Assembly (NCBI GenBank): GCA_916613615.1
Contig: OU744721.1
Coordinates: 84,263,060 to 84,327,059, forward strand
Length of the DNA: 64,000 nucleotides
From: Steromphala cineraria
Taxonomy: Eukaryota > Mollusca > Gastropoda > Trochida > Trochidae
Direction of reading: 5' to 3'
Shown here: positions 1,970-61,551 of the stretch, piece after piece
How the letters are laid out: every line of letters begins with the position of its first letter
How positions within the stretch are numbered: position 1 is the first letter of the stretch
The notes under the pieces: model-generated
Databases searched by the model: none
Seen by the model: the letters and a program-made list of their open reading frames with translations, nothing else
Told to the model about the DNA's origin: nothing
Made by a program: the position numbers and the translations under genes

Positions 1970-2784
1970 GTTGATTATTCTTTTTAATTCACTGACGGAT
2001 AACTTTGCGTACTTTGAGTTAGAATGTCTGAACTTATGATAGTTACAGTAGATTGTACAAACAAACTACTCAGAGATAATCTTGGCCAAATTTGAAAACG
2101 CACATGTCAGATATCTCTTGAGTTGTACTGATTGAGTCAGACAATGTTTGTTTAACTGTCATTGTTTAACTAGAAAAAATACAGTAATAGTTTTTCTCAG
2201 TGTCTGGAGAAGAAATTATTGAGTTATTAGATTTGTGTCATGGCTATGTGGTTGACTTTGAATTACAAATGGGTGTAACTGTATGAATTATATTTTGTGT
2301 TGAATTTTCATTAGCATTCAAATATTTCTGTCGAGGACTATTTCATTGACACTAAAAAATGAATGTCTGAAGCCTTTTGTTTAAATACAAAGAGGGAAAA
2401 CAGAGAAATCACAGGAATTTCAAGTCTCCAAAAATGAAGACTTGTCTTCCGCGTTGTGTATTTAACAATTATTAGCCTTATCACAAAGAAATCTTCACAC
2501 AATAGCAGTGATCTGAGAAGCCAGCGCTTGGAAATGCTGTATGGGCCGAACATAAAATTTTCAAATGCTGATTTTTGTTAAAGCGATTGTTGCTTCCAAG
2601 ATACTTTTTATTATGTTTAAAAAATTGAACTGAGTTATTATGAAGATTTTGTTCAGATCATGCTAAATTTTGTATGTCAAGTGTAGTGTGATTTTTTGGT
2701 TTAAGTAATTTTTGGAAAGATGTGTGACAAGTTAAAATCAAGACATTTGATGAATGTATTTCAAAGGGCTTATGGGCAATTACC
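1970..2784. other. Array spacer (unit 1), representative of all units
   Basis: This AT-rich spacer lies between the poly(A) signal of one gene copy and the upstream region of the next. I see no convincing gene, tRNA, rRNA or snRNA in it. A 71-codon minus frame (2338-2553) recurs in most units, but it has no recognisable motif and is destroyed in some units by 1-bp indels. Each spacer also has the perfect 12-bp palindrome CTTGCTAGCAAG near its left end (here at 1938-1949). Confidence 0.6.
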
Positions 2785-2790
2785 TTTATT
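2785..2790 (-). terminator. Poly(A) signal AATAAA, gene copy 1
   Basis: The minus strand reads AAAATAAAGG, a canonical AATAAA 166-171 nt past the stop codon and about 94 nt beyond the hairpin. It is present at the same offset (171-166 bp left of the stop) in most copies. It is lost in copy 2 (about 10240) and copy 4 (about 13360), where the T-run replaces TTTATT on the plus strand. Confidence 0.55.
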
Positions 2791-2862
2791 TTGGGGGAGG
2801 GGTGGAAGTTGGTGTGCCTTTTGCAGGTGCGAGTTTTAGTGATGTAGTGGCATTGATTCAAG

Positions 2863-2899
2863 TCATCTTTTGTGATATTTGTAAGCTCTGAGAAGAGCT
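2863..2899 (-). terminator. Histone-type 3' hairpin with downstream purine element, gene copy 1
   Basis: On the minus strand AGCTCTTCTCAGAGCT (2899 to 2884) forms a perfect 6-bp stem with a 4-nt TCTC loop. It has an A-rich 5' flank (ACTAAAC) and a TACAAA 3' flank. Replication-dependent histone mRNAs end in a 6-bp/4-nt hairpin of the type GGCTCTTTTCAGAGCC with a UYUN loop. Here the inner five base pairs match, including the important second G-C pair, and only the outer G-C pair is A-U. Ten nt further on, ACAAAAGATGA (2873-2863) resembles the histone downstream element bound by U7 snRNA. The hairpin starts 57 nt after the stop, within the usual histone range. The same hairpin is seen in every copy except copy 4. 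Confidence 0.65.
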
Positions 2900-2955
2900 G
2901 TTTAGTGTTGAAAACACTAGTTTGGAAGAACTGCATGTTGCATGTTCTTGAGTAT

Positions 2956-3267
2956 CTAGTATTCCATCTCTTCACTGTCATACTCCTCAGAGTCCGACTG
3001 GCTGTTGACAGACACATAGTATCTGAGTTCGGCAATCTTCTCAGCCTTTCCATAAGCATACTCGTAGTATGCATTGCGGACACCTTCAACTGTTGCCATT
3101 CTAAGTCGTAGGTTGTATCTGAATGAACGGTGGTTTTCTTGGCGAGCTTTGTCATAACGTTTCTGAAGACCTTCCAATCGGTCGTTGAGGAGGACGACCT
3201 GTTCACATGCCTTCTTGAAGCGAGTCTCGGTCTCGTAGAGTTGAGCGTACAGGTGAAACTTCTCCAT
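2956..3267 (-). CDS. Array gene copy 1: 103-aa helical protein with acidic tail
   Basis: I do not recognise this family. Residues 1-88 are predicted helical and mixed-charge (about 17 K/R against 12 D/E), probably two helices (roughly 5-45 and 48-84) around QENHRSF, with coiled-coil character in LLNDRLEGLQKRYDKA. The RNLRLR-like basic stretch is at 50-56. Eleven tyrosines include a YYEY cluster at 67-70. Residues 89-103 (SQSDSEEYDSEEMEY) hold seven acids and no base and contain CK2-type Ser sites. There is no signal peptide or membrane segment. The start is the first ATG after the TATA box and has a strong context (ACCATGG). Copy 1 differs from consensus by C72Y. TATA is at 3327-3333 and the hairpin at 2884-2899. 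Its upstream dyad is imperfect (GGGTGTCA instead of GCGTGTCA). Confidence 0.8.
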   Translation of the reverse strand: MEKFHLYAQLYETETRFKKACEQVVLLNDRLEGLQKRYDKARQENHRSFRYNLRLRMATVEGVRNAYYEYAYGKAEKIAELRYYVSVNSQSDSEEYDSEEMEY

Positions 3268-3326
3268 GGTATTGATAGTAGAAGCGATTCAGAAGATCTG
3301 ATGCCAAATCCATCAGGCCACGGCCA

Positions 3327-3402
3327 TTTTATACACTGGCCATGACACGCCCTCTGTTGATGGGTGTCAAAACCTTCTCAAATGTGCAGTTGCACTGATT
3401 GG
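3327..3402 (-). promoter_or_regulatory. Promoter of gene copy 1: TATA box and CCAAT box
   Basis: On the minus strand TATAAAA (3333 to 3327) lies 60 bp upstream of the ATG. An initiator-like CATCAGATC has its A at 3299, 34 nt downstream of the first T of the TATA, giving a leader of about 32 nt. A CCAAT box (GGCCAATCAG, CCAAT at 3402-3398) sits about 100 bp upstream of that start. TATAAAATGGCC also overlaps a YY1-like AAAATGGC. The layout repeats in all copies. Confidence 0.65.
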
Positions 3403-4325: not shown

Positions 4326-5195
4326 ATGGCTACTAAGAAAAGCAATACACCTAAAAACACCACAGAAGCTCAACAAAACCCTACAACAACTAAAATGGAC
4401 GAATTTATCCAGACGAGAGCCCGTTTCAAGACGTCCGACCCAAGTTCAATGAAAAGCGCGACCACGCCGCCCGCCATATTGGACCCGGCCGACACGGACT
4501 CGACTCAACTCAGGTCGTTTATTCTTGGGATTCTCTCGTAACATACTCACACAATTGTAAGTAAAATAGATGAAGCCAATGCCGATTTGAAACAGCTTCA
4601 AACTACAATTAACGATATTTTGTCGTCCGTATCTGACAATTCTCAGCAAATCCAAACACATTCAACTGAGATTGAAAATCTGAAGCAAGATATGTCCGAA
4701 ATGAAAAAGAATTTTGAAGTGAAGCTTCTGACTATCGAACTATATTCCCGACGTAACAATCTGTTACTGTATGGCATCCCTGATACAAGGGACCCGGAGA
4801 CAGCCGCGAGGGAAGTATTCTCCTCTCTTGGAGTGAATGAGAAGATTATGTTTGACAACATTCATCGTCTCCCCCGCAACAGCACCGACCCGGCCAACTT
4901 CAGGGCAGATATGCCGAAGCCCATAGTGATAAAATTTGTTAAAGCCGCTGATAGACAAACCATCTTTAATGCTTCTGTTAAAGGCTGGTCCTATCTGAAG
5001 GAGAACAAAATAAGCATTCGTTCTGATCTTCCGGTCCCCCTGAAGAAATATAGAGGTAAACTTGCTAATCGAGCTTTTCAGCTCAGGAACATGCAGAAGG
5101 TTCAAACCAGGATCTTGGAGAGAGGAGTCAACTTAACTCTTCAAATGAGGAAGAACCCCCAGGAGAGCTGGAAGACTGTAAACTTGGATGAATAA
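4326..5195 (+). pseudogene. LINE ORF1 (coiled coil + RRM-like RNA-binding protein) with internal TAA
   Basis: One frame runs from ATG 4326 to the stop at 5193-5195 and is interrupted only by TAA at 4539-4541. The first part (71 codons) is a Lys/Thr-rich leader. After the stop come a coiled coil (about 4587-4730, NSQQIQTHSTEIENLKQDMS), an RRM-like domain starting LYSRRNNLLLYGIP, and a C-terminal domain with PKPIVIKF and LRNMQKVQ. This is the L1 ORF1p architecture: an RNA-binding trimeric chaperone that packages the element's RNA. A protein started at 4587 (202 codons) would keep part of the coiled coil and both RNA-binding domains, so partial function is possible. Confidence 0.8.
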
Positions 5196-6218
5196 ACTTG
5201 GATGAAGATACGATCGTGGGATGATCACTCTCTGTGCCCCATTTCGAGGACGTGAAGTACAGGTGTTATACAAATTCCTATGGATTCTACTTTTAGCCAC
5301 CCAAGGCAGTGAATAAAGATTTTATATTCTTATGTTTTCTACATTGTTGGAATTATACGGACAATGACTATCAATTATAAAGCTCAACAAAGCAGTGCCA
5401 CAATCGACATGATCAGAACAACGTGCTTTTGTTTAAAAACACTACCACGTGCTTTTGTTTATAATCACTACCACGTGCTAAGCTATTTATAACTATTTAC
5501 TGCGCAACTGTTGCCGATGTGGTTGTAGTACTCGGATATAACTCTTCCGTTCTTATTTGTTGTAATTCAAGATTTGTTTCTGCAACTGTTAATATCCTAA
5601 ACGATTATGGACATGGTTTTTATTTTGTACTCAACTAGAGTGTTATGTTTAATATTGATCAAGATTTTATCTGCGCAACTGTGTCACTAAACCGGATGTA
5701 AACGAGTGTAAGAATTTTGTGACAGACAGTGAGTATCCTCGAAAATTTCTCTTTTAAGTTGATCATATTAATGTACTTGTATACCTATTGAATCTTTTAT
5801 TATATATACACTACAAACATGATACTCCTTTCTGATGGCAAATGGCACTGACCCCAAAACCCGGCCACTATGTCAACATTTACCAGCTCTGCGCTTCTAG
5901 TATACTAGAAAACATGTTTTGTTTAGAAATCTAGAACTATCTTGGCCTATATCTCCTTTTTGAAATGACTGGTCTCGGGGAGGGAAGATTAGAAAACGCC
6001 ACAAATTTTTGTGTTTTTAACCGTCCCTCTCTTTTTTCTTTTCTTTTCCTTTTCTTTATATCTTTCTCCTTTTTTTTATCTTTCTATATTTGTTGAAAAA
6101 ATGTTCCCATGTATTACACTCTACATTCATCGAATTGACAGATTTACTACAATATCAGACCATTATGTCACAAGTGTATTGATCTTTATTCCCCTTAACA
6201 TGAATTTTTTATTTTACA
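5196..6218 (+). other. LINE inter-ORF region, non-coding
   Basis: About 1 kb separates ORF1 from ORF2, which is long for such elements. It contains a 26-bp motif repeated at about 5420-5480, with two CACGTG E-boxes exactly 26 bp apart (5446-5451 and 5472-5477) and a degenerate ACGTG before them. A long T/C-rich tract lies at about 6020-6085. The 71-codon frame at 6011-6226 is low-complexity Phe/Leu/Ser and overlaps the ORF2 start, so I do not call it. Confidence 0.6.
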
Positions 6219-9200
6219 ATGAATAATCACATCAAAAAAGTTAAACTTCTCTCAGCCAATTGTAGAGGACTTGCAAACAAGTCTAAAAGAAAAGAACTAA
6301 TGAATATATATAGAAAAAAATCATACTCAATCATGTGCTTACAAGATATCCACATAGATGAATCTACTTCTAACACTATGAGAAATGAATGGGGCTTGCA
6401 ATCTATAATCGCTCCTTTTAAATCTAATTCCAGAGGAGTAGCTATACTCTTTAACAATAACATTGACATAATAATACATAGAACCATAATTGATGAAAAG
6501 GGAAACTATATCATTGTAGACATTTCAATAGAGGATAAAAGAATGACCCTTACAAATCTATATGGCCCTAATACTGATGACCCTCAATTTTACATTGATC
6601 TTTTTGATAATATTTTAAAATTTGATAATGATTCATTAGTTATAGTCGGTGACTGGAACCTTGTACTTGATCCCTCCATTGATCTAGAGAATTATAAACA
6701 TGTAAACAATCCAAAATCAAGAGAGACTGTTTTAGAATTTATTGAAACATATAACCTTATTGATATTTGGAGACTTTTAAATGATAAATCTAGAAAATAT
6801 ACCTGGTGGAAAAAGAATCCAAGACAACAAGCTAGACTTGACTTCTTTATTGTATCCGATGACATATTTGATATAACATTGGACTCTGATATCCTACCAG
6901 GATATAAAAGTGATCATTCAACAATAACATTAACTTTCTCAAATACTTTAAATCAAGAAAGAGGAAAAGGATACTGGAAATTTAATAATTCTTTATTACT
7001 AAACCCAGAATACGGGAATTTAGTCAGAAATACATTATATGAGACAGTACAGGAATATGCATCAGAAAAGATTGACGACTTCGAAACCCTTGAAGATATT
7101 AACCTTACTATTTCTAATTCTTTATTCCTTGAAACTTTATTGATGAAAATTCGTGGAAAGACTATATCTTTTGCATCTTATATAAAGAAATCCAAAACAA
7201 AACTTACAGAAGAACTTGAGGAAAAAATTAAACAAGTTGAAGATAACATTAGAAGAGACTTTCAAAATATAAATGAGGAAATGCTCTCTGAACTATCAAA
7301 ATATAAAAATCAATTGGAAGAAATAAAAAAAGAAGAAATTAAAGGAATACAAATCAGAAATCGAATCCAATGGTATGAAGAGGGAGAAAAACCATCAAAA
7401 TATTTCTGTAACTTGGAAAATAGAAACTTTTCAAAAAAATCAATTAATAAACTAATAACTAAGGACAAAACTGAAATCACAGACAGTAAATCAATACTTA
7501 ATGAGGTTAAGAATTTCTATGAGAATTTATATGCTTCGCATGATGAAGATAGAGTAAAGGATTGTCTAAGAGATATTAAGACCCCAACTTTACACAGAAC
7601 ACTGAGAGAAAATCTTGAAAAAGAAATCAGTATGGAAGAAATCAGCAAAAATGTTTATAAAATGAAAAATAACAAAAGCCCAGGAATTGACGGGTTTCCA
7701 ATAGATTTCTTTAAATTTTTTTGGAAAGATCTAAAATTTTGGATTTATAGATTTGTTAAAGACGTATCAAATAAGAATGACATGTCCCTAAGTATGAAGA
7801 GAGGTGTAATTACTTGCATACCAAAAGCAAACAAAGACAGAACATTACTAAAGAATTGGAGGCCTATCACATTACTTAATGCAGTTTATAAAATTATCAG
7901 CTCATGTATAGCAAATAGATTAAAGACTACATTAGATGAATTAATTCACTCTAACCAAACCGGTTTTATTCCGGGCAGAACCATCAGTGAAAACACAAGA
8001 CTCTTATATGATATAATTTTTGAAACTAAAAAACAAAACATTCCTGGCCTTCTAATTTTGATTGACTTTGAAAAAGCATTTGACTCTGTTTCTAAAAATT
8101 TCATTAATGAAGTTTTACAAAAATTTGACTTTGGACCTGAAATGATTAGATGGATAAATATTTTGACATATGACACTACCTCATGTGTTATCCAACATGG
8201 CCATATTTCTGAATTTTTCCCTAATGAAAGAGGCTGTAGACAGGGAGATCCCTTGTCTCCATACCTTTTTCTTCTTGTGGCTGAGATTCTGGGTTGTATG
8301 ATTAGAAATAATGACAAAATAAAAGGTATTACTATTAACGATACTGAATATAAGCTTGATCAATATGCTGATGACACAGAATTATTTCTTGATGGTACTG
8401 AATACAGCTTGTATGCTGCTATTGACACAATTAATAAGTTCTACAAAATGTCTGGTTTGAAAATTAATTTAGATAAATCAAAAGCAATTTGGATTGGAGC
8501 AAAAGCTAAATCTATTGACATAATATGTAAAGATCTCAATATCGAGTGGATGACGGGTGAATTTGATGTACTTGGTATTAAATTTACGCCTGATCTTGAA
8601 AACTTATGGGTGATAAACACCCGAAAGAGACTTGAAGAAATTAATAGACTCTTATCATCATGGAGGAAAAGAAATTTAACTCTTATTGGTAAAATTACAG
8701 TGATAAAAACTTTAGCAATTTCTAAATTAGTTCATATCTTTAACTCTTTACCTAATCCCCCTGCTGAATTTATTACTGCTCTTGAGAAATTATTTTTTAA
8801 ATTCATATGGAATGGAAAAAATGATAAAATAAAAAGAAATGTTCTAAAAAATAAATATGATGATGGGGGTTTGAGAATGATTGACAACACTAGATTTATA
8901 GATGCTTTGAAATTATCCACCTTAAGATTGTATCTAAAAAACCCTATGAAGAATAACCCCTGTCAGATACCTTTTGATGATATTTTTAATTTTGGAGCAA
9001 ACTCTGATACTTATTTGAAGATAGAAAATCCTTTTTGGCAAGATGTATTAAAGGCTTGGAAAGTATTCCACAAAAAACATTATGTTGACCCTGACATTTT
9101 AGATAATATTTTACCCCAACCTCTTTGGTTTAATCACAATTTCAAAAACAGATCACACTTTATAAAAGATTGGGCAAATAAAGGAATTATGACTATTAAT

Positions 9201-9998
9201 GACATATGTGATGAAAAAGGTCTACTATCAATGGAATCTATAAAAGATAAATACAGCATCAAAGGTACATTTCTAGATTATAATTACTTACTATATATTT
9301 TGCCTGACTTATGGAAATATACCCTTACCCACTCGTGTACAGAAATAAATGCCAGAAGCATAAATGTTACTGAATGCCAGTTGAATTTAATGAAAACATC
9401 AAAAGGCTCAAGACTTTTTTATGACATACTTATCTCAACAGTCGATTACCCTAACATTTGTAACAAATGGCAACTTTTATTTCCTGAAATGATATTTGAT
9501 TGGAAAAACATATTTACAATATATATGAAGGCATTAAAAGACACTAAATTACTGGATTTTCAATATAGATTTCTTCATGGTATCATCTACACTAAAAGAG
9601 AATTACTCAGAATGAAAAAAGTTGACAATAGCTTATGTTGCTTTTGTAAGAATGTTGATGAAAGTGTCTGTCATGTATACTGGGAATGTGAGGAAACACA
9701 AATCTTTTGGAATAATTTACAAGATTGGCTTAATAACTCATTTCCAACTCCAGTGATATTTTCTAAACTCTTAGTCTGGTTTGGTACTCAACACCAAAAC
9801 AGACTAATTAATCACATCATTATTTCTGCTAAAAGATATATATATCTTAGCAATATCAAAAATACATCACTAAATTTCAATATATATTTACAAATTTTGA
9901 AACAAATATTCTTTGTAGAAAATTTTATTGCAACCAGAAACAATAAAAATCAATATTTTGAAAATAAATGGCGTCTCCTCACTCCAGTTCTTATGTGA
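6219..9998 (+). CDS. LINE ORF2: APE endonuclease + reverse transcriptase, intact
   Basis: This 1259-residue protein nicks target DNA and reverse-transcribes LINE RNA there. The N-terminal endonuclease (about 1-240) shows SANCRGL, CLQDIH, TNLYGPN, GDWN, RLDFF and SDHS. The usual catalytic QE is QD here, a conservative change. The middle, about 300-400, is Lys/Glu-rich and helical. The reverse transcriptase (about 480-780) has SPGIDGFP, WRPITLLN, GFIPGR, DFEKAFDSV, GCRQGDPLSPYLF, the catalytic YADD and GLKINLDKSK. A C-terminal CCFC...H....C zinc knuckle lies near residue 1140. The start ATG follows an A/T-rich stretch, and no stop or frameshift is seen. The length fits the L1/Tx1 group. The element is probably still competent in ORF2, pending ORF1 supply from elsewhere. 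Confidence 0.93.
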   Translation: MNNHIKKVKLLSANCRGLANKSKRKELMNIYRKKSYSIMCLQDIHIDESTSNTMRNEWGLQSIIAPFKSNSRGVAILFNNNIDIIIHRTIIDEKGNYIIVDISIEDKRMTLTNLYGPNTDDPQFYIDLFDNILKFDNDSLVIVGDWNLVLDPSIDLENYKHVNNPKSRETVLEFIETYNLIDIWRLLNDKSRKYTWWKKNPRQQARLDFFIVSDDIFDITLDSDILPGYKSDHSTITLTFSNTLNQERGKGYWKFNNSLLLNPEYGNLVRNTLYETVQEYASEKIDDFETLEDINLTISNSLFLETLLMKIRGKTISFASYIKKSKTKLTEELEEKIKQVEDNIRRDFQNINEEMLSELSKYKNQLEEIKKEEIKGIQIRNRIQWYEEGEKPSKYFCNLENRNFSKKSINKLITKDKTEITDSKSILNEVKNFYENLYASHDEDRVKDCLRDIKTPTLHRTLRENLEKEISMEEISKNVYKMKNNKSPGIDGFPIDFFKFFWKDLKFWIYRFVKDVSNKNDMSLSMKRGVITCIPKANKDRTLLKNWRPITLLNAVYKIISSCIANRLKTTLDELIHSNQTGFIPGRTISENTRLLYDIIFETKKQNIPGLLILIDFEKAFDSVSKNFINEVLQKFDFGPEMIRWINILTYDTTSCVIQHGHISEFFPNERGCRQGDPLSPYLFLLVAEILGCMIRNNDKIKGITINDTEYKLDQYADDTELFLDGTEYSLYAAIDTINKFYKMSGLKINLDKSKAIWIGAKAKSIDIICKDLNIEWMTGEFDVLGIKFTPDLENLWVINTRKRLEEINRLLSSWRKRNLTLIGKITVIKTLAISKLVHIFNSLPNPPAEFITALEKLFFKFIWNGKNDKIKRNVLKNKYDDGGLRMIDNTRFIDALKLSTLRLYLKNPMKNNPCQIPFDDIFNFGANSDTYLKIENPFWQDVLKAWKVFHKKHYVDPDILDNILPQPLWFNHNFKNRSHFIKDWANKGIMTINDICDEKGLLSMESIKDKYSIKGTFLDYNYLLYILPDLWKYTLTHSCTEINARSINVTECQLNLMKTSKGSRLFYDILISTVDYPNICNKWQLLFPEMIFDWKNIFTIYMKALKDTKLLDFQYRFLHGIIYTKRELLRMKKVDNSLCCFCKNVDESVCHVYWECEETQIFWNNLQDWLNNSFPTPVIFSKLLVWFGTQHQNRLINHIIISAKRYIYLSNIKNTSLNFNIYLQILKQIFFVENFIATRNNKNQYFENKWRLLTPVLM

Positions 9999-10410: not shown

Positions 10411-10722
10411 CTAGTATTCCATCTCTTCACTGTCATACTCCTCAGAGTCCGACTGGCTGTTGACAGACACATAGTATCTGAGTTCGGCAATCTTCTCAGC
10501 CTTTCCACAAGCATACTCGTAGTATGCATTGCGGACACCTTCAACTGTTGCCATTCTAAGTCGTAGGTTGTATCTGAATGAACGGTGGTTTTCTTGGCGA
10601 GCTTTGTCATAGCGTTTCTGAAGACCTTCCAAGCGGTCGTTGAGGAGGACGACCTGTTCACATGCCTTCTTGAAGCGAGTCTCGGTCTCGTAGAGTTGAG
10701 CGTACAGGTGAAACTTCTCCAT
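10411..10722 (-). CDS. Array gene copy 2
   Basis: Encodes the consensus 103-aa protein. The hairpin is at 10339-10354 and TATA at 10782-10788. The poly(A) signal is mutated (T-run near 10240), and the full-length LINE ends only about 190 bp beyond the hairpin, so any polyadenylated form would have to use other signals. The dyad upstream of TATA is intact here (10798-10805 and 10817-10824). Confidence 0.8.
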   Translation of the reverse strand: MEKFHLYAQLYETETRFKKACEQVVLLNDRLEGLQKRYDKARQENHRSFRYNLRLRMATVEGVRNAYYEYACGKAEKIAELRYYVSVNSQSDSEEYDSEEMEY

Positions 10723-13501: not shown

Positions 13502-13813
13502 CTAGTATTCCATCTCTTCACTGTCATACTCCTCAGAGTCCGACTGGCTGTTGACAGACACATAGTATCTGAGTTCGGCAATCTTCTCAGCCTTTCCACA
13601 AGCATACTCGTAGTATTCATTTCGGACACCTTCAACTGTTGCCATTCTAAGTCGTAGGTTGTATCTGAATGAACGGTGGTTTTCTTGGCGAGCTTTGTCA
13701 TAACGTTTCTGAAGACCTTCCAAGCGGTCGTTGAGGAGGACGACCTGTTCACATGCCTTCTTGAAGCGAGTCTCGGTCTCGTAGAGTTGAGCGTACAGGT
13801 GAAACTTCTCCAT
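13502..13813 (-). CDS. Array gene copy 4, promoter split by LINE, 3' hairpin deleted
   Basis: The coding frame is intact, with A66E. A 21-bp deletion at 13462/13463 removes one arm and the loop of the 3' hairpin, and a further 7 bp are missing from the GCATGTTGCATG repeat just after the stop. The poly(A) signal is also mutated. The TATA box (13873-13879) survives, but a LINE fragment directly beyond it moves CCAAT and the dyad about 1.25 kb away. Probably poorly expressed or silent despite the open frame. Confidence 0.65.
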   Translation of the reverse strand: MEKFHLYAQLYETETRFKKACEQVVLLNDRLEGLQKRYDKARQENHRSFRYNLRLRMATVEGVRNEYYEYACGKAEKIAELRYYVSVNSQSDSEEYDSEEMEY

Positions 13814-13881: not shown

Positions 13882-15134
13882 AGAAGAAGAAGAAGAAGAA
13901 ATATTTATTAAAGTGTCACATAATGTACATAAAATCACAGTATAAATTGCATATATGAACTTAAAAGTAAAATGTACATTATCCGGCCTATGAGACACTA
14001 AAAGCAGTAAAATAGCATAGTATAAGCATATTATAGTAAAATTAACGAACACACACACATATTTTATAACAGCATTGTAACTACTAAAAGAATAAACTAT
14101 GGTTATGACATATACATTCATACACTATAATACATGTATAATAATATAAAAATATATCACAAGTTAAGAATATGCTGGTAAAACATGAAATCTGCGCTGG
14201 AACATGGAGAAAGTCATTGCGGCCAGGGACTTGCTAAGATCAGGACATTGCATAAGAAATATGAATTGGTTGGTATAAGACAGGGAGTTGAACTGGTTAT
14301 GCAATGTGTTGGCTTCTTTCCAGATATTGTAACGGATGTCGGAGTAGAGTGGGCAGACAGTTAGGAAATGGATCTCATCTTCAATAGCATTAAGTTGACA
14401 GTATCGACATATGCGGTCTTGCAAGGGAATCTGAGGTCTGCAGAATCGGCCTAGTTCGATTTCCAGGGGAAGAGAGCCACACCTGAGCTTGGCAAACACG
14501 CTTCTGTGCAGACGATTCAAGTTTCTTGAGACATAGGGATCCACTGTTGTCGATGTTTTGAACAATCTATAAGTTCTAAGTTTGTTGCCGTTCTGTCGCC
14601 CCTTGTCATTCCACAGCTCACTCCACCAGTCAGCAGTGTCAGCGGATATGATGGTGTCTTTGATGATGAGGAACTCATGGTTGCTGAGATTGTGGATGTC
14701 TGTGATAGGAACTGGCAGATACTGGATGAGTTTCAGCGTTGAACTGTACCATGATTTACGGAAGCCAAGTGACCATCTGTTGACGTTGTCCAGTATAGGT
14801 CGATCATCTGTTATCCGAGAAAGCTTCTTCCAGTAGCGAATGACTTCAATACGTTGAACAGCTGATGTAGAGAGCCAGCCCATCTCACCTCGTACTGCTG
14901 CATTAGCACTTTTACTTCCCACACCTAAGAAGTATCTGCAAGCCCGGTGCTGTACCTTGTTGATGCATCTGAATTGCCGAGACCCCCAGATTGCAGAACC
15001 GTATGAAAGAATAGGCTGTACAAGGTTACTGTAAAGGGTGTTGTAGACGTCATAAGCCATTCCTCCGACATACTTGGACTTGCTAATGATAACGCCCAGA
15101 GCTCTGTTTGCAGACTTGTCTAGTTCTCCAGCTG
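13882..15134 (-). mobile_element. 5'-truncated LINE 3' end inserted in array unit 4
   Basis: This insertion of about 1.25 kb is oriented on the minus strand. It comprises the last ~323 codons of an ORF2, a ~280-bp AT-rich 3' UTR (13900-14163) and a 3' tail of TTC repeats (AAG repeats on the plus strand, 13881-13900). It is flanked by TATACA duplications. A microsatellite tail instead of poly(A) and the sequence of the protein set it apart from the L1-like element at 4248-10133. Confidence 0.85.
14164..15134 (-). pseudogene. Truncated LINE ORF2 C-terminus (RT thumb, CCHC)
   Basis: The frame is open to the stop at 14164. It begins inside the protein with ELDKSANRALGVIISKSK and has the post-RT motif LYSNLVQPILSYGSAIWG. 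It ends with a zinc-knuckle-like CRYCQL...H....C followed by LYSDIRYN. The frame continues upstream into array DNA (Met at 15219), but those ~28 residues are not part of the element. There is no RT catalytic core, so it is non-autonomous and dead. Confidence 0.85.
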
Positions 15135-15140
15135 TATACA
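15135..15140. repeat. Target-site duplication TATACA, right
   Basis: Partner of 13876-13881. The array upstream region of gene copy 4 (dyad, CCAAT) resumes from here. Confidence 0.7.
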
Positions 15141-16319
15141 CTGGCCATGACACGCCCTCTGTTGATGCGTGCCAAAACTTTCTCAAATGTGCAGTTGCAC
15201 TGATTGACCTGGAATCCAACGCTAGGTCCTGCCACTGGATATGTCAATTACAAGGCAATCAACATTCACTTAACTGTGTACACATGGATGACAAATATCA
15301 ACCTTGCTAGCAAGCATACCTTTTCCCATTTTTGTTGATTATTCTTTTTAATTCACTGACGGATAACTTTGCGTACTTTGAGTTAGAATGTCTGAACTTA
15401 TGATAGTTACAGTAGATTGTACAAACAAACTACTCAGAGATAATCTTGGCCAAATTTGAAAATGCACATGTCAGATATCTCTTGAGTTGTACTGATTGAG
15501 TCAGACAATGTTTGTTTAACTGTCATTGTTTAACTAGAAAAAATACAGTAATAGTTTTTCTCAGTGTCTGGAGAAGAAATTATTGAGTTATTAGATTTTT
15601 GTCATGGCTATGTGGTTGACTTTGAATTACAAATGGGTGTAACTGTATGAATTATATTCTGTGTTGAATTTTCATTAGCATTCAAATATTTCTGTCGAGG
15701 ACTATTTCATTGACACTAAAAAATGAATGTCTGAAGCCTTCTGTTTAAATACAAAGAGGGAAAACAGAGAAATCACAGGAATTTCAAGTCTACAGAAATG
15801 AAGACTTGTCTTTCGCGTTGTGTATTTAACAATTATTAGCCTTATCACAAAGAAATCTTCACACAATAGCAGTGATCTGAGAAGCCAGCGCTTGGAAATG
15901 CTGTATGGGCCGAACATAAAATTTTCAAATGCTGATTTTTGTTAAAGCGATTGTTGCTTCCAAGATACTTTTTATTATGTTTAAAAAATTGAACTGAGTT
16001 ATTATGAAGATTTTGTTCAGATCATGCTAAATTTTGTATGTTAAGTGTAGTTTGATTTTTTGGTTTAAGTAATTTTTGGAAAGATGTGTGACAAGTTAAA
16101 ATCTAGACATTTGATGAATGTATTTCAAAGGGCTTATGGGCAATTACCTTTATTTTGGGGGAGGGGTGGAAGTTGGTGTGCCTTTTGCAGGTGCGAGTTT
16201 TAGTGATGTAGTGGCATTGATTCAAGTCATCTTTTGTGATATTTGTAAGCTCTGAGAAGAGCTGTTTAGTGTTGAAAACACTAGTTTGGAAGAACTGCAT
16301 GTTGCATGTTCTTGAGTAT

Positions 16320-24146: not shown

Positions 24147-24428
24147 CTAAGAGTCCGACTGGCTGTTGACAGACACATAGTATCTGAGTTCGGCAATCTT
24201 CTCAGCCTTTCCACAAGCATACTCGTAGTATGCATTGCGGACACCTTCAACTGTTGCCATTCTAAGTCGTAGGTTGTATCTGAATGAACGGTGGTTTTCT
24301 TGGCGAGCTTTGTCATAACGTTTCTGAAGACCTTCCAAGCGGTCGTTGAGGAGGACGACCTGTTCACATGCCTTCTTGAAGCGAGTCTCGGTCTCGTAGA
24401 GTTGAGCGTACAGGTGAAACTTCTCCAT
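24147..24428 (-). CDS. Array gene copy 10, tail-less (E94stop)
   Basis: GAG to TAG at codon 94 ends the protein at 93 residues and removes the last ten (EEYDSEEMEY), with six of the seven tail acids. The former stop is at 24117. Hairpin at 24045-24060, TATA at 24488-24494. It stands alone, eight units from the block of five copies with the same change. Confidence 0.75.
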   Translation of the reverse strand: MEKFHLYAQLYETETRFKKACEQVVLLNDRLEGLQKRYDKARQENHRSFRYNLRLRMATVEGVRNAYYEYACGKAEKIAELRYYVSVNSQSDS

Positions 24429-36626: not shown

Positions 36627-36908
36627 CTAAGAGTCCGACTGGCTGTTGACAGACACATAGTATCTGAGTTCGGCAATCTTCTCAGCCTTTCCACAAACAT
36701 ACTCGTAGTATGCATTGCGGACACCTTCAACTGTTGCAATTCTAAGTCGTAGGTTGTATCTGAATGAACGGTGGTTTTCTTGGAGAGCTTTGTCATAACG
36801 TTTCTGAAGACCTTCCAAGCGGTCGTTGAGGAGGACGACCTGTTCACATGCCTTCTTGAAGCGAGTCTCGGTCTCGTAGAGTTGAGCGTACAGGTGAAAC
36901 TTCTCCAT
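36627..36908 (-). CDS. Array gene copy 18, tail-less (E94stop)
   Basis: 93 aa with R42L, M57I, A71V and E94stop. It is the first of five consecutive tail-less copies. Hairpin at 36525-36540, TATA at 36968-36974. The A-to-V change at 71 runs through copies 18-21. Confidence 0.75.
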   Translation of the reverse strand: MEKFHLYAQLYETETRFKKACEQVVLLNDRLEGLQKRYDKALQENHRSFRYNLRLRIATVEGVRNAYYEYVCGKAEKIAELRYYVSVNSQSDS

Positions 36909-38186
36909 GGTATTGATAGTAGAAGCGATTCAGAAGATCTGATGCCAAATCCATCAGGCCACGGCCATTTTATACACTGGCCATGACACGCCCTCTGTTG
37001 ATGCGTGTCAAAACCTTCTCAAATGTGCAGTTGCACTGATTGGCCTGCAATCCAACGCTAGGTCCTGCCACTGGATATGTCAATTACAAGGCAATCAACA
37101 TTCACTTAACTGTGTACACATGGATGACAAATATCAACCTTGCTAGCAAGCATACCTTTTCCCATTTTTGTTGATTATTCTTTTTAATTCACTGACGGAT
37201 AACTTTGCGTACTTTGAGTTAGAATGTCTGAACTTATGATAGTTACAGTAGATTGTACAAACAAACTACTCAGAGATAATCTTGGCCAAATTTGAAAATG
37301 CACATGTCAGATATCTCTTGAGTTGTACTGATTGAGTCAGACAATGTTTGTTTTACTGTCATTGTTTAACTAGAAAAAAATACAGTAATAGTTTTTCTCA
37401 GTGTCTGGAGAAGAAATTATTGAGTTATTAGATTTTTGTCATGGCTATGTGGTTGACTTTGAATTACAAATGGGTGTAACTGTATGAATTATATTTTGTG
37501 TTGAATTTTCATTAGCATTCAAATATTTCTGTCGAGGACTATTTCATTGACACTAAAAAATGAATGTCTGAAGCCTACTGTTTAAATACAAAGAGGGAAA
37601 ACAGAGAAATCACAGGAATTTCAAGTCTCCAGAAATGAAGACTTGTCTTCCGCGTTGTGTATTTAACAATTATTAGCCTTATCACAAAGAAATCTTCACA
37701 CAATAGCAGTGATCTGAGAAGCCAGCGCTTGGAAATGCTGTATGGGCCGAACATAACATTTTCAAATGCTGATTTTTGTTAAAGCAATTGTTGCTTCCAA
37801 GATACTTTTTATTATGTTTAAAAAATTGAACTGAGTTATTATGAAGATTTTGTTCAGATCATGCTAAATTTTGTATGTTAAGTGTAGTGTGATTTTTTGG
37901 TTTAAGTAATTTTTGGAAAGATGTGTGACAAGTTAAAATCAAGACATTTGATGAATGTATTTCAAAGGGCTTATGGGCAATTACCTTTATTTTGGGGGAG
38001 GGGTGGAAGTTGGTGTGCCTTTTGCAGGTGCGAGTTTTAGTGATGTAGTGGCATTGATTCAAGTCATCTTTTGTGATATTTGTAAGCTCTGAGAAGAGCT
38101 GTTTAGTGTTGAAAACACTAGTTTGGAAGAACTGCATGTTGCATGTTCTTGAGTATCTAGTATTCCTTCTCTTCACTGTCATACTC

Positions 38187-38468
38187 CTAAGAGTCCGACT
38201 GGCTGTTGACAGACACATAGTATCTGAGTTCGGCAATCTTCTCAGCCTTTCCACAAACATACTCGTAGTATGCATTGCGGACACCTTCAACTGTTGCCAT
38301 TCTAAGTCGTAGGTTGTATCTGAATGAACGGTGGTTTTCTTGGCGAGCTTTGTCATAACGTTTCTGAAGACCTTCCAAGCGGTCGTTGAGGAGGACGACC
38401 TGTTCACATGCCTTCTTGAAGCGAGTCTCGGTCTCGTAGAGTTGAGCGTACAGGTGAAACTTCTCCAT
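38187..38468 (-). CDS. Array gene copy 19, tail-less (E94stop)
   Basis: 93 aa with A71V. Downstream of the new stop the old frame carries a further change (M101K codon at about 38167), and one A is missing upstream near 38580. Both are shared with copy 21 but not with copy 20. Hairpin at 38085-38100, TATA at 38528-38534. Confidence 0.75.
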   Translation of the reverse strand: MEKFHLYAQLYETETRFKKACEQVVLLNDRLEGLQKRYDKARQENHRSFRYNLRLRMATVEGVRNAYYEYVCGKAEKIAELRYYVSVNSQSDS

Positions 38469-39745
38469 GGTATTGATAGTAGAAGCGATTCAGAAGATCT
38501 GATGCCAAATCCATCAGGCCACGGCCATTTTATACACTGGCCATGACACGCCCTCTGTTGATGCGTGTCAAAACCTTCTCAATGTGCAGTTGCACTGATT
38601 GGCCTGCAATCCAACGCTAGGTCCTGCCACTGGATATGTCAATTACAAGGCAATCAACATTCACTTAACTGTGTACACATGGATGACAAATATCAACCTT
38701 GCTAGCAAGCATACCTTTTCCCATTTTTGTTGATTATTCTTTTTAATTCACTGACGGATAACACTGCGTACTTTGAGTTAGAATGTCTGAACTTATGATA
38801 GTTACAGTAGATTGTACAAACAAACTACTCAGAGATAATCTTGGCCAAATTTGAAAATGCACATGTCAGATATCTCTTGAGTTGTACTGATTGAGTCAGA
38901 CAATGTTTGTTTTACTGTCATTGTTTAACTAGAAAAAAATACAGTAATAGTTTTTCTCAGTGTCTGGAGAAGAAATTATTGAGTTATTAGATTTTTGTCA
39001 TGGCTATGTGGTTGACTTTGAATTACAAATGGGTGTAACTGTATGAATTATATTTTGTGTTGAATTTTCATTAGCATTCAAATATTTCTGTCGAGGACTA
39101 TTTCATTGACACTAAAAAATGAATGTCTGAAGCCTTCTGTTTAAATACAAAGAGGGAAAACAGAGAAATCACAGGAATTTCAAGTCTCCAGAAATGAAGA
39201 CTTGTCTTCCGCGTTGTGTATTTAACAATTATTAGCCTTATCACAAAGAAATCTTCACACAATAGCAGTGATCTGAGAAGCCAGCGCTTGGAAATGCTGT
39301 ATTGGCCGAACATAAAATTTTCAAATGCTGATTTTTGTTAAAACGATTGTTGCTTCCAAGATACTTTTTATTATGTTTAAAAAATTGAACTGAGTTATTA
39401 TGAAGATTTTGTTCAGATCATGCTAAATTTTGTATGTTAAGTGTAGTGTGATTTTTTGGTTTAAGTAATTTTTGGAAAGATGTGTGACAAGTTAAAATCA
39501 AGACATTTGATGAATGTATTTCAAAGGGCTTATGGGCAATTACCTTTATTTTGGGGGAGGGGTGGAAGTTGGTGTGCCTTTTGCAGGTGCGAGTTTTAGT
39601 GATGTAGTGGCATTGATTCAAGTCATCTTTTGTGATATTTGTAAGCTCTGAGAAGAGCTGTTTAGTGTTGAAAACACTAGTTTGGAAGAACTGCATGTTG
39701 CATGTTCTTGAGTATCTAGTATTCCATCTCTTCACTGTCATACTC

Positions 39746-40027
39746 CTAAGAGTCCGACTGGCTGTTGACAGACACATAGTATCTGAGTTCGGCAATCTTC
39801 TCAGCCTTTCCACAAACATACTCGTAGTATGCATTGCGGACACCTTCAACTGTTGCCATTCTAAGTCGTAGGTTGTATCTGAATGAACGGTGGTTTTCTT
39901 GGCGAGCTTTGTCATAACGTTTCTGAAGACCTTCCAAGCGGTCGTTGAGGAGGACGACCTGTTCACATGCCTTCTTGAAGCGAGTCTCGGTCTCGTAGAG
40001 TTGAGCGTACAGGTGAAACTTCTCCAT
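39746..40027 (-). CDS. Array gene copy 20, tail-less (E94stop)
   Basis: 93 aa with A71V. Hairpin at 39644-39659, TATA at 40087-40093. Confidence 0.75.
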   Translation of the reverse strand: MEKFHLYAQLYETETRFKKACEQVVLLNDRLEGLQKRYDKARQENHRSFRYNLRLRMATVEGVRNAYYEYVCGKAEKIAELRYYVSVNSQSDS

Positions 40028-41305
40028 GGTATTGATAGTAGAAGCGATTCAGAAGATCTGATGCCAAATCCATCAGGCCACGGCCATTTTATACACTGGC
40101 CATGACACGCCCTCTGTTGATGCGTGTCAAAACCTTCTCAAATGTGCAGTTGCACTGATTGGCCTGCAATCCAACGCTAGGTCCTGCCACTGGATTTGTC
40201 AATTACAAGGCAATCAACATTCACTTAACTGTGTACACATGGATGACAAATATCAACCTTGCTAGCAAGCATACCTTTTCCCATTTTTGTTGATTATTCT
40301 TTTTAATTCACTGACGGATAACTTTGCGTACTTTGAGTTAGAATGTCTGAACTTATGATAGTTACAGTAGATTGTACAAACAAACTACTCAGAGATAATC
40401 TTGGCCAAATTTGAAAATGCACATGTCAGATATCTCTTGAGTTGTACTGATTGAGTCAGACAATGTTTGTTTTACTGTCATTGTTTAACTAGAAAAAAAT
40501 ACAGTAATAGTTTTTCTCAGTGTCTGGAGAAGAAATTATTGAGTTATTAGATTTTTGTCATGGCTATGTGGTTGACTTTGAATTACAAATGGGTGTAACT
40601 GTATGAATTATATTTTGTGTTGAATTTTCATTAGCATTCAAATATTTCTGTCGAGGACTATTTCATTGACACTAAAAAATGAATGTCTGAAGCCTTCTGT
40701 TTAAATACAAAGAGGGAAAACAGAGAAATCACAGGAATTTCAAGTCTCCAGAAATGAAGACTTGTCTTCCGCGTTGTGTATTTAACAATTATTAGCCTTA
40801 TCACAAAGAAATCTTCACACAATAGCAGTGATCTGAGAAGCCAGCGCTTGGAAATGCTGTATTGGCCGAACATAAAATTTTCAAATGCTGATTTTTGTTA
40901 AAGCGATTGTTGCTTCCAAGATACTTTTTATTATGTTTAAAAAATTGAACTGAGTTATTATGAAGATTTTGTTCAGATCATGCTAAATTTTGTATGTTAA
41001 GTGTAGTGTGATTTTTTGGTTTAAGTAATTTTTGGAAAGATGTGTGACAAGTTAAAATCAAGACATTTGATGAATGTATTTCAAAGGGCTTATGGGCAAT
41101 TACCTTTATTTTGGGGGAGGGGTGGAAGTTGGTGTGCCTTTTGCAGGTGCGAGTTTTAGTGATGTAGTGGCATTGATTTAAGTCATCTTTTGTGATATTT
41201 GTAAGCTCTGAGAAGAGCTGTTTAGTGTTGAAAACACTAGTTTGGAAGAACTGCATGTTGCATGTTCTTGAGTATCTAGTATTCCTTCTCTTCACTGTCA
41301 TACTC

Positions 41306-41587
41306 CTAAGAGTCCGACTGGCTGTTGACAGACACATAGTATCTGAGTTCGGCAATCTTCTCAGCCTTTCCACAAACATACTCGTAGTATGCATTGCGGA
41401 CACCTTCAACTGTTGCCATTCTAAGTCGTAGGTTGTATCTGAATGAACGGTGGTTTTCTTGGCGAGCTTTGTCATAACGTTTCTGAAGACCTTCCAAGCG
41501 GTCGTTGAGGAGGACGACCTGTTCACATGCCTTCTTGAAGCGAGTCTCGGTCTCGTAGAGTTGAGCGTACAGGTGAAACTTCTCCAT
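41306..41587 (-). CDS. Array gene copy 21, tail-less (E94stop)
   Basis: 93 aa with A71V, plus the private changes shared with copy 19 (about 41287 and 41700). Hairpin at 41204-41219, TATA at 41647-41653. Confidence 0.75.
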   Translation of the reverse strand: MEKFHLYAQLYETETRFKKACEQVVLLNDRLEGLQKRYDKARQENHRSFRYNLRLRMATVEGVRNAYYEYVCGKAEKIAELRYYVSVNSQSDS

Positions 41588-42864
41588 GGTATTGATAGTA
41601 GAAGCGATTCAGAAGATCTGATGCCAAATCCATCAGGCCACGGCCATTTTATACACTGGCCATGACACGCCCTCTGTTGATGCGTGTCAAAACCTTCTCA
41701 ATGTGCAGTTGCACTGATTGGCCTGCAATCCAACGCTAGGTCCTGCCACTGGATATGTCAATTACAAGGCAATCAACATTCACTTAACTGTGTACACATG
41801 GATGACAAATATCAACCTTGCTAGCAAGCATACCTTTTCCCATTTTTGTTGATTATTCTTTTTAATTCACTGACGGATAACACTGCGTACTTTGAGTTAG
41901 AATGTCTGAACTTATGATAGTTACAGTAGATTGTACAAACAAACTACTCAGAGATAATCTTGGCCAAATTTGAAAATGCACATGTCAGATATCTCTTGAG
42001 TTGTACTGATTGAGTCAGACAATGTTTGTTTTACTGTCATTGTTTAACTAGAAAAAAATACAGTAATAGTTTTTCTCAGTGTCTGGAGAAGAAATTATTG
42101 AGTTATTAGATTTTTGTCATGGCTATGTGGTTGACTTTGAATTACAAATGGGTGTAACTGTATGAATTATATTTTGTGTTGAATTTTCATTAGCATTCAA
42201 ATATTTCTGTCGAGGACTATTTCATTGACACTAAAAAATGAATGTCTGAAGCCTTCTGTTTAAATACAAAGAGGGAAAACAGAGAAATCACAGGAATTTC
42301 AAGTCTCCAGAAATGAAGACTTGTCTTCCGCGTTGTGTATTTAACAATTATTAGCCTTATCACAAAGAAATCTTCACACAATAGCAGTGATCTGAGAAGC
42401 CAGCGCTTGGAAATGCTGTATGGGCCGAACATAACATTTTCAAATGCTGATTTTTGTTAAAGCAATTGTTGCTTCCAAGATACTTTTTATTATGTTTAAA
42501 AAATTGAACTGAGTTATTATGAAGATTTTGTTCAGATCATGCTAAATTTTGTATGTTAAGTGTAGTGTGATTTTTTGGTTTAAGTAATTTTTGGAAAGAT
42601 GTGTGACAAGTTAAAATCAAGACATTTGATGAATGTATTTCAAAGGGCTTATGGGCAATTACCTTTATTTTGGGGGAGGGGTGGAAGTTGGTGTGCCTTT
42701 TGCAGGTGCGAGTTTTAGTGATGTAGTGGCATTGATTCAAGTCATCTTTTGTGATATTTGTAAGCTCTGAGAAGAGCTGTTTAGTGTTGAAAACACTAGT
42801 TTGGAAGAACTGCATGTTGCATGTTCTTGAGTATCTAGTATTCCATCTCTTCACTGTCATACTC

Positions 42865-43143
42865 CTAAGAGTCCGACTGGCTGTTGACAGACACATAGTA
42901 TCTGAGTTCGGCAATCTTCTCAGCCTTTCCACAAGCATACTCGTATGCATTGCGGACACCTTCAACTGTTGCCATTCTAAGTCGTAGGTTGTATCTGAAT
43001 GAACGGTGGTTTTCTTGGCGAGCTTTGTCATAACGTTTCTGAAGACCTTCCAAGCGGTCGTTGAGGAGGACGACCTGTTCACATGCCTTCTTGAAGCGAG
43101 TCTCGGTCTCGTAGAGTTGAGCGTACAGGTGAAACTTCTCCAT
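42865..43143 (-). CDS. Array gene copy 22, tail-less (E94stop) with 1-residue deletion
   Basis: 92 aa. An in-frame 3-bp deletion removes one Tyr of the YYEY cluster (NAYEYACG). Last of the tail-less block; residue 71 is Ala again. Hairpin at 42763-42778, TATA at 43203-43209. Confidence 0.75.
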   Translation of the reverse strand: MEKFHLYAQLYETETRFKKACEQVVLLNDRLEGLQKRYDKARQENHRSFRYNLRLRMATVEGVRNAYEYACGKAEKIAELRYYVSVNSQSDS

Positions 43144-60303: not shown

Positions 60304-61551
60304 GGTATTGATAGTAGAAGCGATTCAGAAGATCTGATGCCAAATCCATCAGGCCACGGCCATTTTATACACTGGCCATGACACGCCCTCTGTTGATGCG
60401 TGTCAAAACCTTCTCAAATGTGCAGTTGCACTGATTGGCCTGGAATCCAACGCTAGGTCCTGCCACTGGATATGTCAATTACAAGGCAATCAACATTCAC
60501 TTAACTGTGTACACATGGATGACAAATATCAACCTTGCTAGCAAGCATACCTTTTCCCATTTTTGTTGATTATTCTTTTTAATTCACTGACGGATAACAC
60601 TGCGTACTTTGAGTTAGAATGTCTGAACTTATGATAGTTACAGTAGATTGTACAAACAAACTACTCAGAGATAATCTTGGCCAAATTTGAAAATGCACAT
60701 GTCAGATATCTCTTGAGTTGTACTGATTGAGTCAGACAATGTTTGTTTTACTGTCATTGTTTAACTAGAAAAAAATACAGTAATAGTTTTTCTCAGTGTC
60801 TGGAGAAGAAATGATTGAGTTATTAGATTTTTGTCATGGCTATGTGGTTGACTTTGAATTACAAATGGGTGTAACTGTATGAATTATATTTTGTGTTGAA
60901 TTTTCATTAGCATTCAAATATTTCTGTCGAGGACTATTTCATTGACACTAAAAAATGAATGTCTGAAGCCTTCTGTTTAAATACAAAGAGGGAAAACAGA
61001 GAAATCACAGGAATTTCAAGTCTCCAGAAATGAAGACTTGTCTTCCGCGTTGTGTATTTAACAATTATTAGCCTTATCACAAAGAAATCTTCACACAATA
61101 GCAGTGATCTGAGAAGCCAGCCCTTGGAAATGCTGTATGGGCCGAACATAAATTTTTCAAATGCTGATTTTTGTTAAAGCGATTGTTGCTTCCAAGATAC
61201 TTTTTATTATGTTTAAAAAATTGAACTGAGTTATTATGAAGATTTTGTTCAGATCATGCTAAATTTTGTATGTTAAGTGTAGTGTGATTTTTTGGTTTAA
61301 GTAATTTTTGGAAAGATGTGTGACAAGTTAAAATCAAGACATTTGATGAATGTATTTCAAAGGGCTTATGGGCAATTACCTTTATTTTGGGGGAGGGGTG
61401 GAAGTTGGTGTGCCTTTTGCAGGTGCGAGTTTTAGTGATGTAGTGGCATTGATTCAAGTCATCTTTTGTGATATTTGTAAGCTCTGAGAAGAGCTGTTTA
61501 GTGTTGAAAACACTAGTTTGGAAGAACTGCATGTTGCATGTTCTTGAGTAT

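Follow-up and report, generated by a model that had tools for sequence, protein, structure and literature searches.

A putative histone-type 3' end with a possible poly(A) backup on a tandemly repeated non-histone gene of Steromphala cineraria

Histone 3' elements are characterized by a stem of 6 bp, a 4-nt loop of the form UYUN and a G-C second pair. The locus studied here raises the question of whether an element of this kind can serve a gene whose product is not a histone. In the window, i.e., the whole 64-kb stretch of DNA that was analysed, a tandem array lies on the minus strand, with a unit of about 1,560 bp and one gene per unit. The hairpin AGCTCTTCTCAGAGCT occurs in 33 exact copies, all on the minus strand, and a search with three mismatches allowed gave no extra copies in the window. 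Spacings between neighbouring hairpins were 1,557-1,561 bp in 30 of 32 cases and 4,349 and 7,455 bp in the remaining two. The ORF start ATGGAGAAGTTTC was also found 33 times, and the gene 3' ends numbered 34 in total. In 32 of them the ORF start and the hairpin are both present, one belongs to a 5'-truncated fragment (upstream part gone, hairpin kept at 61480-61495) and one lacks an intact hairpin. The last of these, in which the unit sequence is interrupted at the TATA box, is the exception to the hairpin being present in 33 of 34 units, as the first-pass annotation had counted correctly. Because the copies are nearly identical, the 33 hairpins represent one observation and not 33. The features of one unit, and of the other copies concerned, are the following:

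2785-2790, minus strand: AATAAA, candidate alternative poly(A) signal, 109 nt from the start of the hairpin
2863-2873, minus strand: purine-rich element ACAAAAGATGA, candidate HDE or U7 site with the core AAAGA, 10 nt past the stem
2880-2883, minus strand: UACA, candidate site of cleavage after CA, 4 nt past the stem, by analogy with human histone pre-mRNA
2884-2899, minus strand: histone-type hairpin AGCUCU-UCUC-AGAGCU (exact match; RF00032 match at 2860-2904, 19.1 bits)
2900-2955, minus strand: 3' UTR from stop to stem, 56 nt, with two further hairpins predicted from sequence and folding
2956-3267, minus strand: ORF of 103 aa, non-histone, without intron, predicted from sequence and model to form a two-helix hairpin with an acidic tail
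3268-3302, minus strand: predicted 5' UTR of 35 nt behind a putative transcription start, with the start codon context ACCATGG
3327-3333, minus strand: TATA box TATAAAA, 66 nt before the ATG (from sequence)
3398-3402, minus strand: CCAAT box (GGCCAATCAG), 135 nt before the ATG (from sequence)
10339-61495, minus strand: the other 32 exact copies of the hairpin, by exact sequence match
13502-13813, minus strand: the 34th copy, with the 103-aa ORF intact, the 5' arm and loop of the hairpin deleted and AATAAA lost

The geometry that had been claimed at first pass (6-bp stem, UYUN loop, second pair G-C) was borne out by a direct check of the sequence, and so was the histone form of the hairpin as a whole, which is preceded by an A-rich 5' flank. 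The coordinates given earlier for the hairpin and the purine-rich element were correct, both on the minus strand, as were the two distances, with the element 10 nt downstream at 2863-2873 and the hairpin 57 nt after the stop, the stem beginning at nt 57 behind a gap of 56 nt. Among the 32 units that contain both ORF start and hairpin, 25 have this gap; it was 86 nt in six and 341 nt in one because the ORF stops there at codon 94 and codon 9, respectively. The orientation is also the correct one, as the opposite strand would read the loop as GAGA. In the metazoan consensus, the first pair of the histone hairpin is G-C, the loop is UUUC and the 3' flank is ACCCA. The first pair here is A-U, the loop UCUC and the 3' flank UACAA, and 3 of the 16 hairpin positions differ from that consensus, namely both bases of the first pair and the second base of the loop.

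When the window was searched in the gathering mode of Rfam, no family reached its threshold. In the E-value mode (E<=10), RF00032 (Histone 3' UTR stem-loop) was the sole family matched, with 33 matches, one exactly at each hairpin, each with 19.1 bits (E 1.7) and thus below the gathering score of 34 bits. In one 1,560-bp unit searched with laxer filters against 4,227 families, RF00032 was obtained at E 0.041, which corresponds to roughly 1e-5 per unit when only this family is considered (0.041/4,227); the same search returned mir-1256 (20.9 bits, E 0.29) and sR35 (12.7 bits, E 4.5), both far below gathering. Apart from the score, the first pair, the loop and the 3' flank, the 3' end resembles RF00032 Histone3, the element of SLBP and U7 snRNP, in its stem, UYUN loop, second pair and A-rich 5' flank, and likewise in the CA just past the stem, the AAAGA element downstream and the distance of <60 nt from the stop of the full-length ORF. 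Unlike the genes that bear RF00032, those in the array do not code for a histone.

The low score and the A-U first pair, together with the single independent observation that near-identical copies provide, could be taken to mean that a palindrome came to resemble a histone hairpin by chance, all the more as mir-1256 obtained its 20.9 bits, apparently by chance, within a single array unit. The frequencies obtained when one unit was dinucleotide-shuffled 20,000 times, however, speak against such a coincidence. Any perfect 6-bp/4-nt hairpin appeared 0.58 times per strand in these shuffles, and the strict histone form 7 times altogether (0.00035 per unit per strand), that is, in 7 of 11,563 chance hairpins of this size. 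With AAAGA 6-26 nt downstream, the strict form was absent from all 20,000 shuffles and a looser histone form occurred in three; in 100 shuffles of the window, the exact hairpin had a mean of 0.00. Moreover, the hairpin lies on the correct strand and on the correct side of the stop codon of a gene with a CCAAT/TATA promoter, and no Rfam family other than RF00032 was matched in the whole-window search. Chance resemblance is therefore regarded as very improbable.

Past the hairpin, the coding strand reads TACAAATATC and then ACAAAAGATGA, the latter being present at all 34 gene 3' ends, with its AAAGA core beginning 13 nt past the stem. A purine-rich HDE shortly past the stem is usual in Histone3, and the element of the array agrees with this. 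In mouse H2a, the HDE core AAAGAG pairs with CUCUUU of U7 (PMC7026596), and AAAGA matches five of the six bases of that core. In human histone pre-mRNA, the main cut follows a CA located 5 nt past the stem (PMC6303110), and UACA is the corresponding candidate in the array. No U7 snRNA was found in the 64-kb window at the Rfam gathering score.

Upstream of the ORF, 32 of 34 copies have the CCAAT box, at 134-135 nt from the ATG, and 33 of 34 have TATAAAA. If the start of transcription lies 31 nt beyond the first T of the TATA box and the transcript is cut behind the CA at 4 nt past the stem, both of which are predicted positions, the mRNA would have a length of 423 nt. Just upstream of the TATA box there is also an inverted repeat, TGACACGC...GCGTGTCA, which is exact in 31 of 34 copies and has one mismatch in one arm in the copy at 3343-3369; it could possibly be a factor-binding site.

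The 103-aa protein (12.5 kDa) has a basic body, with a pI of 9.3 for residues 1-90 and 5.75 for the whole. In the AlphaFold2 model made from the single sequence of the copy at 10411-10722 (mean pLDDT 89), two helices extend over residues 2-43 and 47-89, followed by the acidic tail SDSEEYDSEEMEY, which is modelled with low confidence. No family exceeded the cut-off in Pfam, where no histone model was matched, or in NCBIfam; IQ_SEC7_PH in Pfam gave 16.3 and 17.1 bits against a cut-off of 27 and was taken as chance. The PDB sequence search gave no relative below E 0.1, Foldseek returned varied helical hairpins and no match at E<=0.001 in PDB and BFVD, and no relatives were found in viral_contigs, genome_contigs or phages. 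With two long helices and an acidic tail in the model and no histone model in Pfam, histone identity was ruled out, and the protein, as modelled, is not a histone fold. No histone genes were seen by eye among the window ORFs of at least 80 aa. An overlapping open frame of 119-196 aa (2658-3206 and equivalents), mostly with a GTG start and in a different frame from the 103-aa ORF, extends past the hairpin in many copies and was taken as a by-product.

Replication-dependent histone genes, for example those of the Hydractinia echinata cluster, are multicopy and single-exon, with TATA, short UTRs, and a hairpin followed by a downstream element (PMC5011920). Multiple copies, an uninterrupted ORF, a TATA box, short UTRs and a hairpin with a downstream element are shared between the array and the histone genes of H. 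echinata (PMC5011920) and Caenorhabditis elegans (PMC1924863). The intronless ORF, the CCAAT/TATA promoter and the tandem copies of replication-dependent histone genes are all found here, and a histone-fold or H1 product is not. Also unlike such genes, the array has one gene per unit and encodes a protein whose model shows a two-helix hairpin and an acidic tail. Considering the CCAAT and TATA boxes, the uninterrupted 103-aa ORF, the 56-nt 3' UTR, the hairpin, AAAGA and the tandem copies, each unit is probably a whole gene that has the architecture of a replication-dependent histone gene and a non-histone product. Among the matches listed in the literature, as far as titles and the openings of abstracts tell, none reported a non-histone gene with a 3' end of histone type; this negative is weak, as subscription papers are mostly outside that coverage.

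Variation within the array was analysed in a main set of 31 units. These were the 32 that possess an ORF start and the exact hairpin, less u10354, whose flank is interrupted. In this set, 119 of 1,560 positions were variable. None of the 60 nt before the ATG varied, compared with 22 of 312 in the CDS, 1 of 56 in the 3' UTR, none of the 24 nt after the hairpin, 7 of the 100 nt after these (all singletons) and 80 of 860 in the spacer; the hairpin itself has 0/16 by construction, since the units were selected by the exact hairpin. The 3' UTR, hairpin and next 24 nt together contained 1 variable position in 96 versus 87 in 960 downstream (Fisher p 0.0017), and the hairpin with the 24 nt alone none in 40 (p 0.024), both p-values being rough because gene conversion makes the sites non-independent. 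Not one of 865 downstream 96-nt windows had as few as one variable site. The longest invariant runs were those from TATA to ATG (85 nt) and over the A-rich flank, hairpin and downstream element (58 nt); run length was set aside as proof by itself, since the spacer also has an invariant run of 57 nt. A second set consisted of the 33 ORF starts and the fragment, the variants being taken from the former. It gave 1/60 in the leader, 1/56 in the 3' UTR, 0/24 in the next 24 nt and 11 in the next 104 nt, and the hairpin was free of substitutions, with a gap in 11 columns. Around the hairpin, no variant shared by at least two copies was seen between -66 and +158, which is the widest gap of this kind (226, the next being 91). 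As this stretch extends past AATAAA, the constraint cannot be assigned to the hairpin in particular; the array variation speaks for the keeping of both hairpin and AATAAA and makes no choice between them.

AATAAA is separated from ACAAAAGATGA by 72 nt and was kept in 32 of 34 copies, so that polyadenylation of these transcripts could still take place. The mRNAs might accordingly be ordinary polyadenylated ones ending after AATAAA, with the hairpin as a 3' UTR structure for another factor. This explanation would agree with the lack of shared variants up to +158, AATAAA included, and with the folding of the 3' UTR. Three successive hairpins over 101 nt gave a z of -3.3, with none of 200 shuffles equally stable, compared with a z of -2.05 and 7 of 200 shuffles as stable for the histone-type hairpin with its immediate surroundings (50 nt); because the 3' UTR is predicted to form two more hairpins, the histone-type one could belong to some other structure. 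Extra 3' UTR hairpins ahead of the stem-loop are not a known feature of histone mRNAs. Against this explanation, the histone form is rare among 6-bp/4-nt hairpins (7 in 11,563), AAAGA lies 13 nt past the stem, and singleton variants resume right after this element (7 in the next 100 nt). Exclusive polyadenylation is considered rather unlikely.

The presence of AATAAA does not exclude a histone-type end, because both signals are carried by known histone genes. Most C. elegans histone genes have the hairpin and AATAAA downstream, as here (PMC1924863). The human H2AC18 pre-mRNA, with stem-loop/HDE and AATAAA together, can recruit both processing complexes and has two possible 3' ends (PMC9756948), although in H2AC18, which is a histone gene, AATAAA overlaps the HDE, whereas the two are 72 nt apart here. 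A histone-type 3' element on a non-histone gene, as proposed at first pass, is well supported at the sequence level, by RF00032 as the only whole-window match, the rarity in shuffles and the variation-depleted 3' block, to which the CCAAT/TATA promoter, the uninterrupted ORF and the tandem arrangement contribute further. On the other side stand the sub-gathering score, the deviating first pair, loop and 3' flank, the retained AATAAA and the early stops in 7 of 33 ORFs. A histone-type 3' end with a poly(A) backup on a non-histone gene is the reading we favour, and the mRNAs of the array are rather likely to undergo histone-type processing.

A third explanation would be that the array is decaying or satellite-like and that the hairpin is a nonfunctional relic of histone type, acquired for example via recombination with a histone array. 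Seven of 33 ORFs stop early, six at codon 94 and one at codon 9, one copy has lost hairpin and AATAAA, and a non-LTR retrotransposon is situated inside the array. The CDS variants, 8 synonymous and 14 non-synonymous with 2 stops among the latter, give a pN/pS of 0.44 for the 33 ORFs, which is only moderately low and, from 22 variants, suggests mild constraint on few data. Against decay stand the full 103 aa kept in 26 of 33 ORFs, the start codon context ACCATGG, and the TATA-to-ATG stretch and 3' block as the most invariant parts of the unit, and a relic seems improbable.

Under the favoured histone-type processing, transcripts with a short 35-nt leader would be bound by SLBP at the hairpin and paired with U7 snRNP at AAAGA, and a cut behind UACA, at about 4 nt from the stem, would release an mRNA of about 423 nt without poly(A). 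The conserved AATAAA might provide a fallback or alternative site of polyadenylation, as in human H2AC18 and the histone genes of C. elegans. The mRNA would presumably be produced alongside histone mRNAs, in S phase or in the oocyte or early embryo, and large amounts of the protein could be required while the genome replicates or in early cleavage, which would fit the form of the gene. Whether the whole family is expressed like replication-dependent histones, with mRNAs that are processed by SLBP/U7, lack poly(A), are linked to S phase or the oocyte and encode a small helical protein required as DNA is replicated, is judged from the sequence to be an even chance. If true, the histone 3'-end route would be usable by another protein, the existence of a new protein that DNA replication demands in large amounts would be indicated, and the array would offer a natural test of the hairpin positions that SLBP and U7 tolerate (A-U first pair, UCUC loop).

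Some further observations concern the structure of the array. The stop at codon 94 (E94*), which removes most of the acidic tail, is common to the six copies at 24147-24428 and 36627-43143. Five of the six are adjacent, as local unequal exchange or conversion would give, and one of these five also lacks one codon. The unit of the 34th copy is broken at its TATA box by a foreign stretch (about 13882-15130), which starts beside a short CTT repeat and contains most of a 351-aa ORF (14164-15219). The non-LTR retrotransposon lies between two array units on the plus strand at 4587-9998. Its probable ORF1 (4587-5195) had no Pfam family above the cut-off, and its 1,259-aa ORF (6219-9998) contains endonuclease and RT domains.
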